DNA of 64,000 bases from Nibribacter ruber (GTDB lineage: Bacteria > Bacteroidota > Bacteroidia > Cytophagales > Hymenobacteraceae). How positions within the stretch are numbered: position 1 is the first letter of the stretch; every line of letters starts with the position of its first letter. Positions 21,714 through 53,850 of the stretch are shown in pieces. Made by a program: the position numbers and the translations under genes. The stretch lies in the NCBI RefSeq assembly GCF_009913235.1, contig NZ_CP047897.1, positions 62,001-126,000 of the forward strand. Direction: 5' to 3'. The notes beneath the pieces are model-generated. The model had not been told where the DNA came from. It saw only the letters and a program-made list of their open reading frames with translations, and did no database searches.

Positions 21714-24152
21714 TTACTTCCAATCCACCTTCGGGAAGCGGGCTTTCAAAGAACCACGCATCAAGCGGTATTCTTCCTGCCAGAAGTAATGCAAGCTGTT
21801 CACCACTTTCAGAGGCTTTAAATCTGGCGTTAGCAAGTGCAAAGCCACGCCTTCGTCACCGCCATCAACGGTTGGATTGTGGGTCCAGTCAAACACGTCT
21901 TGCAAACGCACTTCCATGATGGGCGCCTGGGCGTTGTCTGGGTAGTACAGTTCCACCGCATGGCCGTCTGGTAAGGCTAAGGTAGCGGGAGCCAGTTCTT
22001 CTAACATCACCCGTTGCTCCCTAGTCAACATATTCTGCAACAGCGGCAACAGGTCAATGTCCAGCAGGTCCTGGCCAATCTGCACGTCCTCCAGGTGGTA
22101 GGCCAGCCATTCGTTGTTGGTCATGAGCAGGGTAGGGGTGCTAATATCAGGGAAGCCTTCGGTGGGGTGCCATTTCCGGAGACACAGCACGCGGTTCTGG
22201 AACTGCTTCACGGCCTCAGAGAAGTTCAACCAATCCTCGCCTTCACGCTTGATGGTCTCGCAGATGGCTTGCACCAGGAAACGCTCATCCGGCTCAGGCA
22301 ATGGTTTGCTCTGGAGCACGATAGAGCCAATGCGCATGTCGCGGGAGGCCGTTAATTCGCCTTCCTCAGGGTCCCAGGAGACCACATCCTTTTGCTTCAC
22401 CAGCGGGGCCAGGTCTTTGGGGTTGAGCGGCGAGGCCAGGAAAATGCGGCCCGGACCATCGCCGCCGGCGTGCAGGTGGGCAATGGCGAGCCAAGGGTCA
22501 TGGGCCAGGTCGTCGCGGTGGCCGGCAGAGGCGTACTTGCCGTTGGCCAGCTGGAACTGGGCGTTGTTCCCAGGCCTGGCGTACGCAATACGTTCTGGGT
22601 AACAGTTGGCCAGCAGCACGCCGGTCTCATACGGGTCTACTGCGGTGTTTTCGGGTTCAATAGAAAACATCCGTCTATAACTGGCGGCAATCTTGTCAAT
22701 CTTGGAGAAGCGCTTCTGGTGCAGTCCTTCTTGGCGGGTGCGGCGCAGGGCCTCAATGCGCAGGTTCAGGTCAATGCCGGCTTCGCGGGGTAAAGGGTCA
22801 CGTTCTTCCAGCAGGGCGGCAATGTCGGTGGCCAGGGCCAGTTGGTCGCTTTCCTGGGCGGCCAGGAGCATGTGGGCCAGACGCGGGTGCGTGGGCAGGG
22901 CGTGCATCTTGCGGCCGTGCTCGGTGATGCGGCCGTTCTCCAGGGCGTTGAGCTGGTGCAGGGTTTCCTGAGCGTACAGCAGGGCGGCTTTGGGCGGCGG
23001 CGTGAGCCAGGTTAAGGCCCTGATGTCTGAAATGCCCCACGCGGCCATGTCCAGCACCAGCGGGGCCAGGTCGGCTTCCTGAATCTCGGGGGTACGGTGC
23101 GGGGCCAGGCGTTCGTGCAGGGCCTCGGTCCAGAGGCGGTAACAGGTGCCCGGACCTAAACGCCCGGCCCGACCCGCGCGTTGGTCGGCGGCGTCTTTGG
23201 AGATGCGCACCGTCTCTAGCCTGCTCAGGCCGGTGGCGGGGTCAAAGCGCTGGGTTTTGGCAAAGCCGGTGTCAATGACCACGGTCACGCCTTCAATGGT
23301 GAGGCTGGTCTCAGCAATGGAGGTGGCCAGCACCACTTTGCGCTTGCCGTTGCGGTCTGGCATAATGGCGGCGTATTGCTTGCCGGGGGGCAACATGCCG
23401 TACAGCGGGTGGATGGCCACCTCGCGCAGGCCTCTCCGGAGCAGGGCCTCTACTTTTCTGATGTCCTGCTCGCCGGGCAGAAACACCAGCACATCGCCTT
23501 GCTGTTCTTGCAGGGCCTTCCGGATGGCGCGGTCCGTCATTTCATGGAGCAGTTGGGCATCGGTCTCGCCGGCGTACTGCACGTCTATGGGGTATTGCCG
23601 ACCCTGGCTCTCTACGGCGGGGGCGTTGAGCAGGCGGGTAAGCTGGGGCATGTTAAGCGTGGCGCTCATGACCAGAATGCGCAGGTCTGGGCGCTGGGTA
23701 GACTGGGCTTCGCGCGCCAGGGCCATGGCCACGTCTGCGTGGATGCTCCGCTCATGGAACTCGTCAAAAATGACCAGCCCCACACCGTTGAGGGCGTTGT
23801 CTGAGTGGAGCATGCGGGTGAGAATGCCCTCGGTGACTACCTCCAGGCGGGTCTTCTCTGAGGTGCGGTTCTCAAACCTGATGCGGTAGCCCACAGTCTG
23901 GCCCACCTCCTGGCCCAGCAGTTGCGCCAGCCGTTCGGCAATGGTGCGGGCCGCCAGCCGACGGGGTTCCAGCATGATGATTTTCTGCCCCTGCAGCCAG
24001 GCCTCGTCTAAAAGGGCCAGCGGCAACAGGGTACTCTTGCCCGCCCCCGGAGGCGCGTTCACAATCAGCGTGTTCTGTTCGGCAAGGTGCTCCCGCACGG
24101 AAGGGATAATCTCCCGAACGGGCAGGTCTATGGTAAATGGGTCGAAAGGCAA
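21714..24152 (-). CDS. hrpB: ATP-dependent helicase HrpB
   Basis: The 812-aa DEAH/RHA-type helicase has Walker A APPGAGKSTLLPLAL (33-47), the DEAH-box variant DEFHER (near 130), SATLN, ATSIAETSLTIEGVT (motif V region), and DQRAGRAGRLGPGTCYRLW (motif VI). The long C-terminal half, including a conserved RLMRGSLKARFPKVDW end, is typical of HrpB. The exact RNA role is unknown. The frame opens at TTG (24152) with an in-frame stop four codons upstream, so a non-ATG start seems needed although the N-terminal sequence PFDPFTIDLPV looks complete. The AT-rich retron island begins directly upstream. Confidence 0.94.
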   Translation of the reverse strand: MPFDPFTIDLPVREIIPSVREHLAEQNTLIVNAPPGAGKSTLLPLALLDEAWLQGQKIIMLEPRRLAARTIAERLAQLLGQEVGQTVGYRIRFENRTSEKTRLEVVTEGILTRMLHSDNALNGVGLVIFDEFHERSIHADVAMALAREAQSTQRPDLRILVMSATLNMPQLTRLLNAPAVESQGRQYPIDVQYAGETDAQLLHEMTDRAIRKALQEQQGDVLVFLPGEQDIRKVEALLRRGLREVAIHPLYGMLPPGKQYAAIMPDRNGKRKVVLATSIAETSLTIEGVTVVIDTGFAKTQRFDPATGLSRLETVRISKDAADQRAGRAGRLGPGTCYRLWTEALHERLAPHRTPEIQEADLAPLVLDMAAWGISDIRALTWLTPPPKAALLYAQETLHQLNALENGRITEHGRKMHALPTHPRLAHMLLAAQESDQLALATDIAALLEERDPLPREAGIDLNLRIEALRRTRQEGLHQKRFSKIDKIAASYRRMFSIEPENTAVDPYETGVLLANCYPERIAYARPGNNAQFQLANGKYASAGHRDDLAHDPWLAIAHLHAGGDGPGRIFLASPLNPKDLAPLVKQKDVVSWDPEEGELTASRDMRIGSIVLQSKPLPEPDERFLVQAICETIKREGEDWLNFSEAVKQFQNRVLCLRKWHPTEGFPDISTPTLLMTNNEWLAYHLEDVQIGQDLLDIDLLPLLQNMLTREQRVMLEELAPATLALPDGHAVELYYPDNAQAPIMEVRLQDVFDWTHNPTVDGGDEGVALHLLTPDLKPLKVVNSLHYFWQEEYRLMRGSLKARFPKVDWK

Positions 24153-24203
24153 GGGGAGAATTTAGAGGGTTACTTAACTAATCTTACAAAGTTAAGACTA
24201 GAC

Positions 24204-24235
24204 TTTGGGAAATATAAAAGAAATAACAATATTTG
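24204..24235 (+). promoter_or_regulatory. Possible Bacteroidota promoter of the retron cassette
   Basis: TTTG (24204-24207), a 20-nt spacer, then AATATTTG (24228-24235) fits the -33 TTTG and -7 TAnnTTTG pattern with one mismatch, 36 nt before the first ATG of the cassette. Confidence 0.4.
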
Positions 24236-24271
24236 AAGAGGATAGGAAGCATCTTTAATTAATTATGTTTT

Positions 24272-24502
24272 ATGTTTATAGTTTCTATTGGAGTTAAGCC
24301 ATTGTTAAATCACGATATAAAATTTAGTGAATTGTATCGTTCAGAAAATGAAGAAGGTATTGCTAAATTTATTTCATCTTTAAAGAAGCACGAAGGGCCA
24401 ATTCCTGTAGAATCATTAAATAGTTTAGTCGGTTATCCAATAAGAGTAAATGAAGTGTATTATTGTGATATAGAAGTTTATATAATCTTAACAAAAGAAT
24501 AA
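24272..24502 (+). CDS. Small ORF at the head of the retron cassette, 76 aa
   Basis: A 76-aa AT-rich frame with no recognised domain (MFIVSIGVKPLLNHDIKF ... CDIEVYIILTKE). The base composition matches the retron genes and not the neighbouring GC-rich genes. It ends 34 bp before the PRTase-like gene, in the same direction, so it is probably part of the cassette. It could be a third protein component, a small regulator, or a fortuitous frame. The 12-residue stretch with NSLVGYPIRVNEVYYCD suggests a beta-rich fold, but nothing firm can be said. Confidence 0.55.
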   Translation: MFIVSIGVKPLLNHDIKFSELYRSENEEGIAKFISSLKKHEGPIPVESLNSLVGYPIRVNEVYYCDIEVYIILTKE

Positions 24503-24536
24503 TGTTTGAATTGATGTTGTCTTTTGGAATTGTATA

Positions 24537-25376
24537 ATGAAGAGAGAAGACTATAATAGGATATTAAGATTGTATCCAAAGCAGAAATGGTTAGTAAAAA
24601 AAGAAAGTGAATTGTTTAGCCTTCTTCAACATTGTGATCTGCCCCATCAGAAGGAATTGGTATTTGAACTTTTGAACGAATTTATATATGTAGATTTGGA
24701 ATTATTAGAAATATATTTAGAGAATATTGCTGAATATATAGTTAATTCTTCTGGATTTACCTTGGAAAGAACAATTATTACTGCATTAGCTTGGGAAGGA
24801 GATCCTGATAGTAGTCAAATGATTATTCAGTTATTAAGGCCTTGGATGACTAGGAAAGGTTGGAATAATGTGGCCTTTGCAAGTAATGTTCCTAAGGGAA
24901 TGAAGTTGCTAAATAAGTATGGATATGATCAAGTAATATTAGTAGATGAATTTTTAGGTACAGGAAGGACAGCAGAAATCCGTATTGAGTATTTGAGACA
25001 AGGTGCTGTTCGTGATTTAGAAATTAAAGCATGTTTCGTTGCAGGTATGAAGTTTGGCTTATGTAAAATTTCAAAACTATATGATGATGTTTTTTGTACG
25101 CTTGAGCTAGATCAAGCTATAACTGATAAATATTCAGGAATAGAAAAAACTAATGCAATTAGGTCAATGCATCAATTAGAAACTAAACTACTTAATGATA
25201 TAAATGGTAAAAAATTAAAAGATTATAAATTTGGGTTCTCAAAAACTCAAGCACTTTATTCTTCTTATGGCAATATTCCTAATTCTGTTTTTCCGATTTT
25301 TTGGTGGCCATATGATAATGAATCTAAAAATCGGAATGTTCTTTTCATTCGTAATGAGACAGGATTGGAATTATGA
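24537..25376 (+). CDS. Retron effector: phosphoribosyltransferase-like protein
   Basis: The 279-aa protein carries a PRPP-binding-loop motif of type I phosphoribosyltransferases, VILVDEFLGTGRTA (residues 133-146), preceded by a beta-alpha region (WNNVAFASNVPKGMKLLNKY) and followed by LEIKACFVAGMKFGL. Residues 1-75 are helical and may be a separate N-terminal domain. From memory, PRTase-like proteins paired with a winged-helix partner define type III retrons. It overlaps the next gene by ATGA (25373-25376), implying translational coupling. The likely role is as the toxic or signalling arm of the retron defence system; substrate and activity are unknown. It is strongly AT-rich compared with hrpB. 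Confidence 0.85.
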   Translation: MKREDYNRILRLYPKQKWLVKKESELFSLLQHCDLPHQKELVFELLNEFIYVDLELLEIYLENIAEYIVNSSGFTLERTIITALAWEGDPDSSQMIIQLLRPWMTRKGWNNVAFASNVPKGMKLLNKYGYDQVILVDEFLGTGRTAEIRIEYLRQGAVRDLEIKACFVAGMKFGLCKISKLYDDVFCTLELDQAITDKYSGIEKTNAIRSMHQLETKLLNDINGKKLKDYKFGFSKTQALYSSYGNIPNSVFPIFWWPYDNESKNRNVLFIRNETGLEL

Positions 25377-25714
25377 AACTTTCTAATGAAGAAATAAGGA
25401 TTTTGAAAGATTTGTACCGATCATCTGATGGGTTATCTCCTTTTGTTTTTTTTCAAAGATATAAGTATTCTCCTGCAGTAGTTTTTGAGTTTTCAACAAA
25501 GTTTTCAGAATTAAATTTTATTGAGGTCTCCAAATCATCAGGTAAGTTCAACTTGACCAATGGAGGAAGAGACTTTGTACTTAAAAGCAAGTTGAAGCTT
25601 TCAAATGATATTTACTCTAATATGCCTGAGGGTTGCACCCAACCTGCTTTGAAGGTAAATGAGCCTTACTTGCCTATTTTTAGTAAATTGCCAAAAGAAT
25701 TATTAAACTTGTAG
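25373..25714 (+). CDS. Retron accessory winged-helix DNA-binding protein
   Basis: The 113-aa protein looks like a winged helix-turn-helix. MKLSNEEIRILKDLYRSSDG is helix 1, PFVFFQRYKYSPAVVFEFSTK helices 2-3, and FIEVSKSSGKFNLTNGGRDFV the wing with the 'L-T..G..F' ending common in wHTH folds. It starts within the stop of the PRTase-like gene and ends 7 bp before the a1 repeat of the retron RNA. Its likely role is to hold or sense the RNA-DNA hybrid or to bind invading DNA, as proposed for wHTH partners in retrons. Confidence 0.8.
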   Translation: MKLSNEEIRILKDLYRSSDGLSPFVFFQRYKYSPAVVFEFSTKFSELNFIEVSKSSGKFNLTNGGRDFVLKSKLKLSNDIYSNMPEGCTQPALKVNEPYLPIFSKLPKELLNL

Positions 25715-25721
25715 TACCTAT

Positions 25722-25923
25722 GGGAGGTGGAAAAGAAACTAGCATATTGGAAGCGAGTCGCTTCTTGAGTTAAGGTTAGATTTAACCTAGGGCAAAGCAA
25801 GTTTGCCAGTTTGCTCGGCAGGGCCGAGACAAACTCTCAGTAATGATATTATTCGTCGTATCCTCCGAATAATATCATTACTGAGGTTAGCTAAAGTAAA
25901 GAAAGTAGTTTTATCCACCTCCC
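25722..25923 (+). ncRNA. Retron msr-msd non-coding RNA
   Basis: The outer a1/a2 repeats GGGAGGTGGA (25722-25731) and TCCACCTCCC (25914-25923) are perfectly complementary. TAGC at 25740-25743 supplies a candidate branching G (25742). The msr part shows stem-loops at 25750-25764 (GAAGCG/CGCTTC), 25773-25788 (AGGTTA/TAACCT), 25791-25807 (GGCAAA/TTTGCC) and 25808-25835 (AGTTTG-CTCGGC/GCCGAG-CAAACT). The msd is a perfect 20-bp hairpin, CTCAGTAATGATATTATTCG (25836-25855) with its complement 25866-25885, and a 10-nt loop. The RT start codon lies 7 bp after a2. The layout is that of known retron RNAs; exact msDNA ends are not predictable from sequence alone. Confidence 0.92.
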
Positions 25924-25930
25924 TTTTCAA

Positions 25931-26971
25931 ATGTCGAAAAAAAGGATCTTAAGCAATTGGTCAAATTTTTTTGAGCAAAGAGGAATTCCTGAAGATATCC
26001 GAGAAATTTACCTCAGGTATATAAAAAAACTTTTAGTCAAAGATGTACCTATAATTTTTGACTTCAATCATCTGTCGAAATTAGTTGGACGGCAACAATG
26101 GTATTTGGCATCTGTCGTTAATAACACATCTTCGCATTATAGAACTTTTAATCTAAAAAAACGATCTGGGGGATTTAGGGAGATTTCAGTTCCTTATCCT
26201 GCTTTATTAGGAGTTCAGTATTGGGTTTATAAGAATATTTTACAAAAAATCCCTATTAATAATTCGAGCCATGGGTTTGCTAAAAACAAATCTATAATTA
26301 CTAATTCTAAAATACATTTAGGGCAATCTAATTTGTTGAAAATGGATTTGAAGGATTTTTTTCCTTCAATACACTTAGCAAGAGTTATAAAAGTTTTTAA
26401 AGCCTTAGGCTATACTACTAAAGTTTCCTATTATTTAGCCTCTGTTTGTTGTATAAATGATTGTCTCCCACAAGGTGCACCTACTAGTCCTATTCTAAGT
26501 AATATAATTAGTTTTGATTTAGATAGGAGGTTATACCTTTTTGCTAAAAAATTCAATTTGAAATATTCTCGATATGCTGATGATTTGACTTTTTCTGGTG
26601 AAAATATAAATGTCAAAATGATACATTATATTTCTGAAATTATAGTTTCAGAAGGCTTTATAGTAAATGACAAAAAGACTAGATTGCATAAGGAGTCTGC
26701 TAAAAGAATAGTTACAGGTATTTCAGTCGCTGGTAGCGAATTAAAATTACCTAAAAAGTATAAAAGAGATCTTAAACAAGAATTATATTATATTAATAAA
26801 TACGGCATTCATTCTCATGTTTCATCTGTTAATATCAAGCATACAAATTATATTGATGTTTTAATAGGTAAGCTGAATTTCTGGTTAAGTGTTGAGCCAG
26901 GCGACGAGTTTGTTGTAGAACAATTAAAAATGTTATATAGTATAAAGTATCCTGAAAGTATTCCTAAATAA
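25931..26971 (+). CDS. Retron-type reverse transcriptase
   Basis: The 346-aa protein has RT motifs LLKMDLKDFFPS (catalytic Asp 139), LPQGAPTSP (179-187) and SRYADDLTF (YADD 215-218). The two retron hallmarks are present: NSKIH (125-129), a variant of the NAxxH motif in region X, and VTG (261-263, KRIVTGISV) in region Y. The length is typical of retron RTs, which lack extra domains. It begins 7 bp after the a2 repeat. It should copy the msd from the 2'-OH of the branching G to make msDNA. Base composition is very AT-rich. DGR or group II intron RTs are unlikely, because the VTG motif and the msr-msd structure are diagnostic. Confidence 0.96.
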   Translation: MSKKRILSNWSNFFEQRGIPEDIREIYLRYIKKLLVKDVPIIFDFNHLSKLVGRQQWYLASVVNNTSSHYRTFNLKKRSGGFREISVPYPALLGVQYWVYKNILQKIPINNSSHGFAKNKSIITNSKIHLGQSNLLKMDLKDFFPSIHLARVIKVFKALGYTTKVSYYLASVCCINDCLPQGAPTSPILSNIISFDLDRRLYLFAKKFNLKYSRYADDLTFSGENINVKMIHYISEIIVSEGFIVNDKKTRLHKESAKRIVTGISVAGSELKLPKKYKRDLKQELYYINKYGIHSHVSSVNIKHTNYIDVLIGKLNFWLSVEPGDEFVVEQLKMLYSIKYPESIPK

Positions 26972-27054
26972 TATGTTGTATTTTTCTTAATACAAGAATA
27001 TGTTAAATAATTTAATTGTTAATTATTGAAATACGTATTAAGCTTAAAATTAAT

Positions 27055-27633
27055 TCAATTCTCCTCATAAACCTTTTCAATCCTTCTATCCGGTATCAAC
27101 CACATCAACGCCACCAGCACATAGACACCGTTCGCGGCCCAGGGGCTCCAGAAGGAGAGGGCTATGCCTGTCAGGTACAAGAGCGGGGAGAGTTTGCCTT
27201 TCAGGTCTTGGCCAATGGCTTTGGCGAGTATTGAGTCTTTGCCGTTCTTTTGGATGATGGTCTGCTCCAGTACCCAATAGGCAATAGAGCACAAAAGCAG
27301 GATGCCGCCATACAGGGCCGTAGCCGCCGGCGCGAAGCTGTTTTCGCCCATCCAGCCGGTGGCAAAGGGAATCAAAGACAGCCAGAAGAGCAGGTGCAGG
27401 TTGGCCCAGAGAATGCTTCCGTTTACCTTGCTGGCGCTGTGGAGCATGTGGTGGTGGTTGTTCCAGTAAATACCGATGTAGATAAAGCTGAGCACGTAGC
27501 TCAGGAACACGGGCAGGAGCGGGGCCAGGGCTTGCCAGTCGGTGCCGTGCGGTACCTTAATCTCCAGTACCATAATGGTGATGATGATGGCCAACACGCC
27601 GTCACTAAATGCTTCTAACCGGTTCTTGTTCAT
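27055..27633 (-). CDS. TMEM175-family potassium channel
   Basis: 192 aa from the ATG at 27633 (a GTG at 27654 would add seven residues). The family signature RLEAFSDGVLAIIITIMVLE contains the FSD motif that lines the TMEM175 pore in helix 1. About six hydrophobic helices follow (residues 8-26, 38-58, 70-90, 100-118, 140-165, 170-185). Bacterial TMEM175 proteins form tetrameric, leak-like K+ channels. It is convergent with the retron RT gene, and GC content returns to the chromosomal level within it. Confidence 0.92.
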   Translation of the reverse strand: MNKNRLEAFSDGVLAIIITIMVLEIKVPHGTDWQALAPLLPVFLSYVLSFIYIGIYWNNHHHMLHSASKVNGSILWANLHLLFWLSLIPFATGWMGENSFAPAATALYGGILLLCSIAYWVLEQTIIQKNGKDSILAKAIGQDLKGKLSPLLYLTGIALSFWSPWAANGVYVLVALMWLIPDRRIEKVYEEN

Positions 27634-27751
27634 AAGGAGGGTCACCCACCGCACCCAAGCCCGGCGAGTAGGAAGAAGGAAAGGTACTACTTAAACTTAT
27701 ATGTAGAAACAGCTATATTGATTTTGCCTCTCCTATTTGAACAGCCAAGGT

Positions 27752-27793
27752 CCGTTTTTGGCCTGTTTTCCAGAAAATAGCCCAAAAACGGAA
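27752..27793. repeat. Dispersed palindrome, copy 10
   Basis: TCCGTTTTTGGCCTGTTTTC with right arm AAATAGCCCAAAAACGGA; the TC/GA outer pair extends the arm. It lies between two minus-strand genes. Confidence 0.9.
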
Positions 27794-29291: not shown

Positions 29292-29333
29292 GCCGTTTTT
29301 GGCCTGTTTTCCAGAAAACAGCCTAAAAACGGC
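29292..29333. repeat. Dispersed palindrome, copy 11
   Basis: GCCGTTTTTGGCCTGTTTTC paired with a right arm ending CTAAAAACGGC. It lies between divergent genes, upstream of the UvrA2-like gene. Confidence 0.9.
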
Positions 29334-53806: not shown

Positions 53807-53850
53807 CGTCGTTTTTGGCCTGTTTTCCGGAAAACAGGCCAAAAACGACG
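53807..53850. repeat. Dispersed palindrome, copy 22 (perfect, no loop)
   Basis: 44 nt, CGTCGTTTTTGGCCTGTTTTC followed directly by its exact complement; the centre is TTCCGGAA. Confidence 0.96.

Follow-up and report, generated by a model that had tools for sequence, protein, structure and literature searches.

In published retrons, a toxic effector is held in a complex of the reverse transcriptase (RT) with multicopy single-stranded DNA (msDNA) and is released on infection (PMC12548924, PMC13158370). In the type IX retron Kva2, a winged-helix protein runs along the stem of the msDNA, bridging it to the RT, and D5 of phage T5, a helix-turn-helix (HTH) protein, mimics that winged-helix protein, with the result that the effector is triggered (PMC13405049). 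Phosphoribosyltransferases (PRTases) have been mentioned as retron effectors of unknown action (PMC9122126), and a 2026 commentary lists them with those retron effectors that await characterization (PMC13158370). Within the literature searched, where coverage of subscription papers was thin, no mechanism for a PRTase retron was recognised. Here we describe a retron with a PRTase-like and a winged-helix partner in a 64,000-nt stretch of the Nibribacter ruber genome (contig NZ_CP047897.1, positions 62,001 to 126,000; hereafter the window, to which all coordinates refer). An initial annotation, made from the letters alone, had assigned the locus to a type III class with little experimental work, a fair description for the literature searched, which includes one paper with natural type III-A retrons (PMC12548924). 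The window holds three III-A proteins in their order together with a retron-type RNA of conserved form, and the locus is almost certainly a complete type III-A retron. It is an additional example of a known but little-studied class, not a new class; what is new here is the apparent defence swap site beside hrpB at which it lies.

The three retron proteins and their gene order

Retron RTs are marked by YxDD, NAxxH-like and VTG motifs. The window RT carries YADD, NSKIH and VTG, as the initial annotation had noted. It is matched by 61 PADLOC profiles, the top five of which are all RT_III-A (best 1.9e-139, 462 bits); the best profile of another type, II-A, reaches 1.5e-82 and 275 bits. The RT also matched Pfam RVT_1 and fell one bit under the cut-off of its nearest NCBIfam RT model, St85 (234 against 235 bits), and solved retron RTs were matched in the Protein Data Bank (PDB), Ec86 best. 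As far as profile comparison goes, the RT thus falls within the retrons and sits best with III-A.

The PRTase-like protein, the probable toxic effector, matched PADLOC PRTase_III-A (3.7e-79) and Pfam PRTase-CE (PF24390; 86.6 bits, cut-off 27). The phosphoribosyl pyrophosphate (PRPP) motif attributed to it is indeed present as VDEFLGTG, and the loop pattern D[DEN][FY]xG[ST]G was found in 20 of 20 aligned PRTases (the window protein and 19 relatives). Its sequence alone matched no solved structure, and its profile gave weak matches (best E 0.012), many of them PRTases. An AlphaFold2 model built from a six-row alignment (pLDDT 72.7; below 50 for residues 226 to 279) matched 128 PDB entries at E ≤ 0.001. 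Among the 50 listed matches, with E values of 4e-5 to 4e-4, most carry PRTase names (orotate, hypoxanthine and uracil PRTases). Residues 246 to 272 (PNSVFPIFWW...R) are among the best-conserved segments of the family, yet have low confidence in the model. Specifically, P248, N249, F252, P253, F255, W256 and R272 are invariant or nearly so in 20 rows. Because this tail is conserved though poorly modelled, we infer a docking surface, which suggests that the C-terminal segment is a partner-docking tail. The PRTase had no match in phage records, and its gene had none in plasmid DNA.

The winged-helix protein matched PADLOC WH_III-A (7.9e-21) and had no match in Pfam or NCBIfam. An [FY][ILV]P motif lies in the last 40 residues of the winged-helix open reading frame (ORF) in 17 of 19 loci, L078 and L079 being the two without it, and Y99 and P101 are invariant in 11 aligned rows; the motif is possibly a docking peptide. 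All three proteins therefore match III-A profiles, which bears out the proposed retron identity and class. Since these profiles and the gene order fit a retron, we set aside ordinary winged-helix and PRTase functions, such as that of a plain salvage enzyme.

The genes lie in an insert between hrpB (minus strand, start 24152) and a TMEM175 gene (27055-27654, minus strand). GC content is 0.29-0.34 in the three 1-kb bins from 24001 to 27000, compared with 0.44-0.64 in the other window bins, in agreement with the AT-rich block described earlier. The insert contains four forward ORFs of note and a single long intergenic gap. The PRTase and winged-helix genes share 4 bases, consistent with the coupling claimed for them, and the winged-helix gene is followed by that gap, of 216 bases, and then by the RT gene. 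No tRNA gene was found in the 64-kb window, and no second match to the RT protein was found in its own genome at E ≤ 0.001. Bacteroidota-type promoters have the consensus TTTG..TAnnTTTG, and a weak promoter-like site, TTTG-N20-AATATTTG, lies near the upstream end of the insert.

Close relatives occur in distant bacteria, including a Cloacimonadota metagenome-assembled genome (MAG; 57% RT identity), a Piscirickettsiaceae MAG and Pseudomonas. Further ones are carried by plasmids from Acinetobacter, Rhizobium and a Hyphomicrobiales bacterium, by viral contigs (L043-L045, one identical match), and by genomes from the family, order, class and phylum to which the window belongs. RT identity to the nearest relatives found is 54-57%. 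At E ≤ 0.001 the PRTase_III-A profile matched 3 of 204 family, 12 of 390 order, 15 of 395 class and 15 of 395 phylum genomes, sets that overlap and each include the N. ruber genome; many weak matches among them are probably ordinary PRTases. The initial annotation had pointed to a four-gene order, including a 76-residue ORF (ORF76), to be sought in other genomes. The order PRTase, winged helix, RT does recur: of the 20 loci that have both PRTase and RT (the window is one), 19 have an ORF of winged-helix size that begins -4 to +19 nt from where the PRTase ends and lies 144-276 nt before the RT gene. In L088, no such ORF was found by script. ORF76 had no convincing relative in the sets searched.

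The msr-msd RNA

The perfect a1/a2 repeats and perfect 20-bp msd hairpin claimed for the gap before the RT gene are both present, the 9-base core GGGAGGTGG/CCACCTCCC standing inside a longer closing stem. The 202-base RNA is highly structured: it folds with a minimum free energy (MFE) of -89.7 kcal/mol, compared with -45.6 ± 3.8 kcal/mol for 200 dinucleotide shuffles, none of which was as good (z = -11.5). The longest ungapped stem in the window RNA has 21 pairs (G-U allowed), and none of 100 mononucleotide shuffles gave more than 12. Rfam gave no match at gathering score in the window and none at E ≤ 1 for 25690-25950.

Pairing in relatives was analyzed in 12 of 21 upstream regions. The nine left out are L005, a near copy of L004, and L080-L085, L087 and L088, mostly of a more distant III-A subgroup, whose a1/a2 were not delimited. 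L043 and L045, which represent the same match as L044, were likewise not used. We took pair counts from the arms of each locus because a multiple RNA alignment shifted the window stem-loop 1 by one base and lost several a2 ends. Arms of a1 and a2 from the same locus pair in runs averaging 11.5, versus 5.1 for mixed loci, and in 19 of 132 mixed combinations the run is at least as long as the weakest own-locus one; the arms were chosen by eye, which favours this result. Variation in stem-loop 1 is modest: at four of the six positions two kinds of standard pair occur, a fifth is constant, and the sixth changes only in L101, to an unpaired A-C. The arms of stem-loop 1 were the best-pairing ones within the search range, which again favours pairing, and the cross-locus comparison serves as control. 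The longest ungapped stem differs in sequence in each of the 12 loci and exceeds all 100 shuffles in the window, L002, L003, L075, L077, L099 and L101. Thus, pairing of the a1/a2 arms and of stem-loop 1 is kept across the 12 loci, with modest covariation, as had been anticipated for a retron RNA.

The A and G directly 3' of a1 are invariant in 12 aligned rows, and this AG is present in all 13 loci listed. From general retron anatomy, we take G25742 to be the branch point. The RT-DNA is predicted to lie opposite approximately 25905 to 25835, giving about 71 nt. The features of the insert are collected in Table 1.

Table 1. Features of the retron insert, in window coordinates
Feature	Position	Strand	Basis
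AT-rich insert	24158..27060 (ends approximate)	.	GC profile; limits of DNA similarity to same-genus stretches
Promoter-like site	24204..24235	+	Script scan; weak, one mismatch to consensus
ORF76, 76 aa, probably no conserved retron component	24272..24502	+	Profile and similarity searches, structure model
Probable toxic effector, PRTase_III-A (PRTase-CE), 279 aa, with VDEFLGTG as PRPP loop	24537..25376	+	Profiles, motif alignment, structure model
WH_III-A protein (winged helix), 113 aa, [FY][ILV]P conserved close to the C-terminus	25373..25714	+	PADLOC profile, alignments
msr-msd non-coding RNA	25722..25923	+	Folding vs shuffles, cross-locus pairing
a1 arm and AAACTA extension of closing stem	25722..25741	+	Pairing, fold
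Predicted branching guanosine, in CTAGC directly 3' of a1	25742..25742	+	Inferred from invariant A, G
msr stem-loop 1, GGAAGCG AGT CGCTTCT	25749..25765	+	Pairs in 71 of 72 cells, 12 loci
msd hairpin, perfect 20-bp stem 25836-25855/25866-25885	25836..25885	+	Fold
a2 side of closing stem, TAGTTT + CCACCTCCC	25906..25923	+	Pairing, fold
Retron RT, 346 aa, type III-A	25931..26971	+	PADLOC, NCBIfam, alignment, PDB search

The variable site beside hrpB

DNA similarity to stretches of the same genus stops at 24152-24168, at the hrpB start, and resumes at 27061-27077, at the TMEM175 end, in those stretches that contain TMEM175. hrpB is present in all 16 genus genomes and TMEM175 in 11. In 8 of the 16 genomes (N. 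ruber included), AT-rich cargo stands next to hrpB or to a partial copy of the hrpB 5' end; its GC content is 0.23-0.32 in the seven other than N. ruber. In five of these seven, the cargo has strong matches to defence profiles, several of which are at the level of the AAA/OLD superfamily and not of a named system. Specifically, G142 carries PD-T4-4 (A 1.2e-96, B 7e-13), G138 carries PDC-S06 (1.2e-165), and G136 and G140 each carry an AAA_15 protein (NsnB 3.2e-38 and AriA 2.5e-22, respectively). The G131 cargo has four genes, for a helicase (C3a187 2.4e-21), an ADP-ribosyltransferase-type protein, a methyltransferase-like protein (C3a159 4.5e-20) and a 2OG-Fe(II) oxygenase. The cargo of G143, a UvrD-type helicase protein, has weak PADLOC matches only (best 0.00099), and of the four genes in G144 one has weak matches only (best 0.0012) and three have none. 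The other eight genomes have no ORF of more than 100 aa with GC below 0.33 in the listed stretch beside hrpB; an 896-aa ORF in G133 (GC 0.37, without PADLOC match) was not counted as cargo.

TMEM175 is the far neighbour in five of the eight cargo genomes (N. ruber, G142, G136, G131 and G138). G140, G143 and G144 have no TMEM175 match, and the constant side is therefore hrpB. In G136, G131 and G140, a second, 163-219 bp piece of the hrpB 5' end adjoins the cargo, with other genes before the full hrpB, and in G138 a 160-bp piece of the TMEM175 3' end stands at the cargo. No integrase families were found among 10 cargo proteins scanned with Pfam, nor among the window's four. It appears that cassettes are exchanged by recombination in the flanking genes. 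The hrpB side thus looks like a defence swap site, which supports a defence role for the retron. Nothing on it was found among the matches listed in a general literature search; no search by site name was made.

The observation of a variable site concerns 21714-27654 of the window and L131-L134, L136, L137 and L140. Two small adjacent genes without PADLOC match lie between hrpB and its partial copy in L136 (2677-3233); by eye, we take them to resemble a RelBE/YoeB-type toxin-antitoxin pair. Separately, matches with ≤3 mismatches to a near-palindromic element of 29 bases (GTTTTTGGCCTGTTTTC..GAAAA..) number 959 on the forward and 968 on the reverse strand of the 4.35-Mb genome (control, 0). Most such palindromes count on both strands, and the genome therefore has roughly a thousand copies. 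The window has 35 matches where 0 are expected, for example at 27754-27789, 29295-29330 and 53811-53846.

Proposed mechanism, alternatives and known systems

Taken as a whole, the locus is best explained, with somewhat better than even confidence, as a complete III-A retron that works by release of a held PRTase. The scheme is modeled on Kva2 because that retron is the nearest precedent found with a separate winged-helix protein. In this scheme, the retron would have entered the genome as a cassette, at a site next to hrpB where defence genes are swapped. With G25742 as the priming site, the RT would make a branched RNA-DNA of about 71 nt from the msd hairpin, and the RT, the RNA-DNA and the winged-helix protein would form a complex that holds the PRTase inactive. 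The winged-helix protein would probably grip the double-stranded msd stem and may tie the PRTase to the RT. The hold on the PRTase would give way once a phage protein bound, modified or degraded the msDNA, and the freed PRTase would attack a phosphoribosyl-based metabolite and stop the cell (abortive infection). By analogy, we lean slightly towards sequestration and release as such; that the winged-helix protein reads the msDNA is possible, with the chances a little below even.

Several observations weigh against this interpretation. The natural III-A retron Bpu1 made RT-DNA and gave no defence against 12 phages in E. coli, and another, Ppe1, could not be transformed into E. coli (PMC12548924). 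The proposed contact between the winged-helix protein and msDNA draws on analogy to another retron type, and in some relatives the winged-helix ORF is recognised by place and size, not by similarity. Stem-loop 1 arms mixed between loci pair in 692 of 792 cells, as against 71 of 72 for own-locus arms, and 48 of 132 mixed arm pairs are complete; covariation is therefore present but modest. The long stem tops all 100 shuffles in only 7 of 12 loci, not doing so in L004, L044, L076, L078 and L079. Finally, the last 54 residues of the PRTase are poorly modelled, and query-normalised TM-scores of the model are 0.30-0.37 in the 50 listed PDB matches. As E values are good but TM-scores low, the fold class is supported and fine detail is not.

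The retron could instead be a tripartite toxin-antitoxin module that serves its own maintenance or competition between plasmids or mobile elements, with phage defence secondary. The compact, toxin-antitoxin-like operon is consistent with this, as are the relatives on three plasmids and on viral contigs (L043-L045, the same match) and the failure to transform Ppe1, which its authors presume to reflect toxicity (PMC12548924). We nevertheless judge it unlikely, given that cargo beside hrpB is defence-type by profile in five of seven other genus genomes. That the locus is a decayed or inactive retron would fit with the low RT identities, given above, of the nearest relatives found, but is most improbable: all frames are open, the catalytic YADD and PRPP-loop residues are intact, and neither the 9-base a1/a2 core nor the msd stem contains a mismatch.

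ORF76, which the initial annotation had counted as an extra partner, could be a working fourth part of the system, such as a host-specific regulator or an antitoxin to the PRTase. It lies on the same strand within the insert, 34 nt upstream of the PRTase gene and downstream of the promoter-like site. Set against this, PADLOC, Pfam and NCBIfam gave no family for ORF76 at E ≤ 1, it had no match in the 15 further genus genomes, in plasmids or in phages, and none of the ORFs in 24 related loci matched it at E ≤ 10 (among these loci L043 has no DNA upstream of the PRTase, and L086, L087 and L100 yielded no full cassette). Across 380 order genomes, 14 besides its own had a match at E ≤ 0.1. The best, at E 3.8e-4 per genome, covers 35 aa inside 1142-aa frames in two genomes of one genus; approximately 0.14 such matches are expected over 380 genomes, and it could therefore be due to chance. 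A single-sequence model showed no confident fold (pLDDT 52.5). With no convincing relative in the sets searched, ORF76 was rejected as a conserved retron part. A working role for it is quite improbable, and it is probably a passenger or spurious ORF.

Returning to the PRTase-release retron, a fuller reading would join two claims: that the hrpB side (the interval up to TMEM175 where the two genes lie together) is a recombination-driven, integrase-free defence exchange site of the genus, at which whole cassettes, in some cases edged with part of hrpB or TMEM175, are swapped through recombination in the flanking core genes, and that the winged-helix protein is an msDNA stem reader displaced by phage DNA-binding proteins, which frees the PRTase. 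We regard the two together as rather unlikely. Being compact and intact, with a clear RNA and a visible swap site in its genus, this III-A locus offers a usable test case for trigger and chemistry.

Among known systems, the DprA-PRTase system of P2-like prophages is alike by description in that its PRTase has been proposed to act as a suicide effector controlled by a partner that senses DNA; unlike the window retron, it has no RT or retron RNA described (PMC9122126). Retron-Sda1 has a III-A1-like RT and RNA, of III-A type as here, and stands with HipA and DUF3037, without the PRTase and winged-helix proteins that the window retron has (PMC12548924). Retron-Kva2 likewise has a separate winged-helix protein in its operon, but its effector is a HEPN RNase where that of the window is a PRTase (PMC13405049). 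Its RT is related to the window RT (2.1e-33), as is that of the type II-A retron Eco1/Ec86 (6e-44 to 8e-44), although the window RT reaches 462 bits with III-A, compared with 275 for the best II-A profile. The Eco1/Ec86 effector is a nucleoside deoxyribosyltransferase-like protein. Closest are the natural type III-A retrons Bpu1 and Ppe1 (PMC12548924), which, likened by family, have the same three protein families and a retron RNA. From these, the window retron differs in its host, in the extra, unmatched ORF76 and in its insertion beside hrpB.

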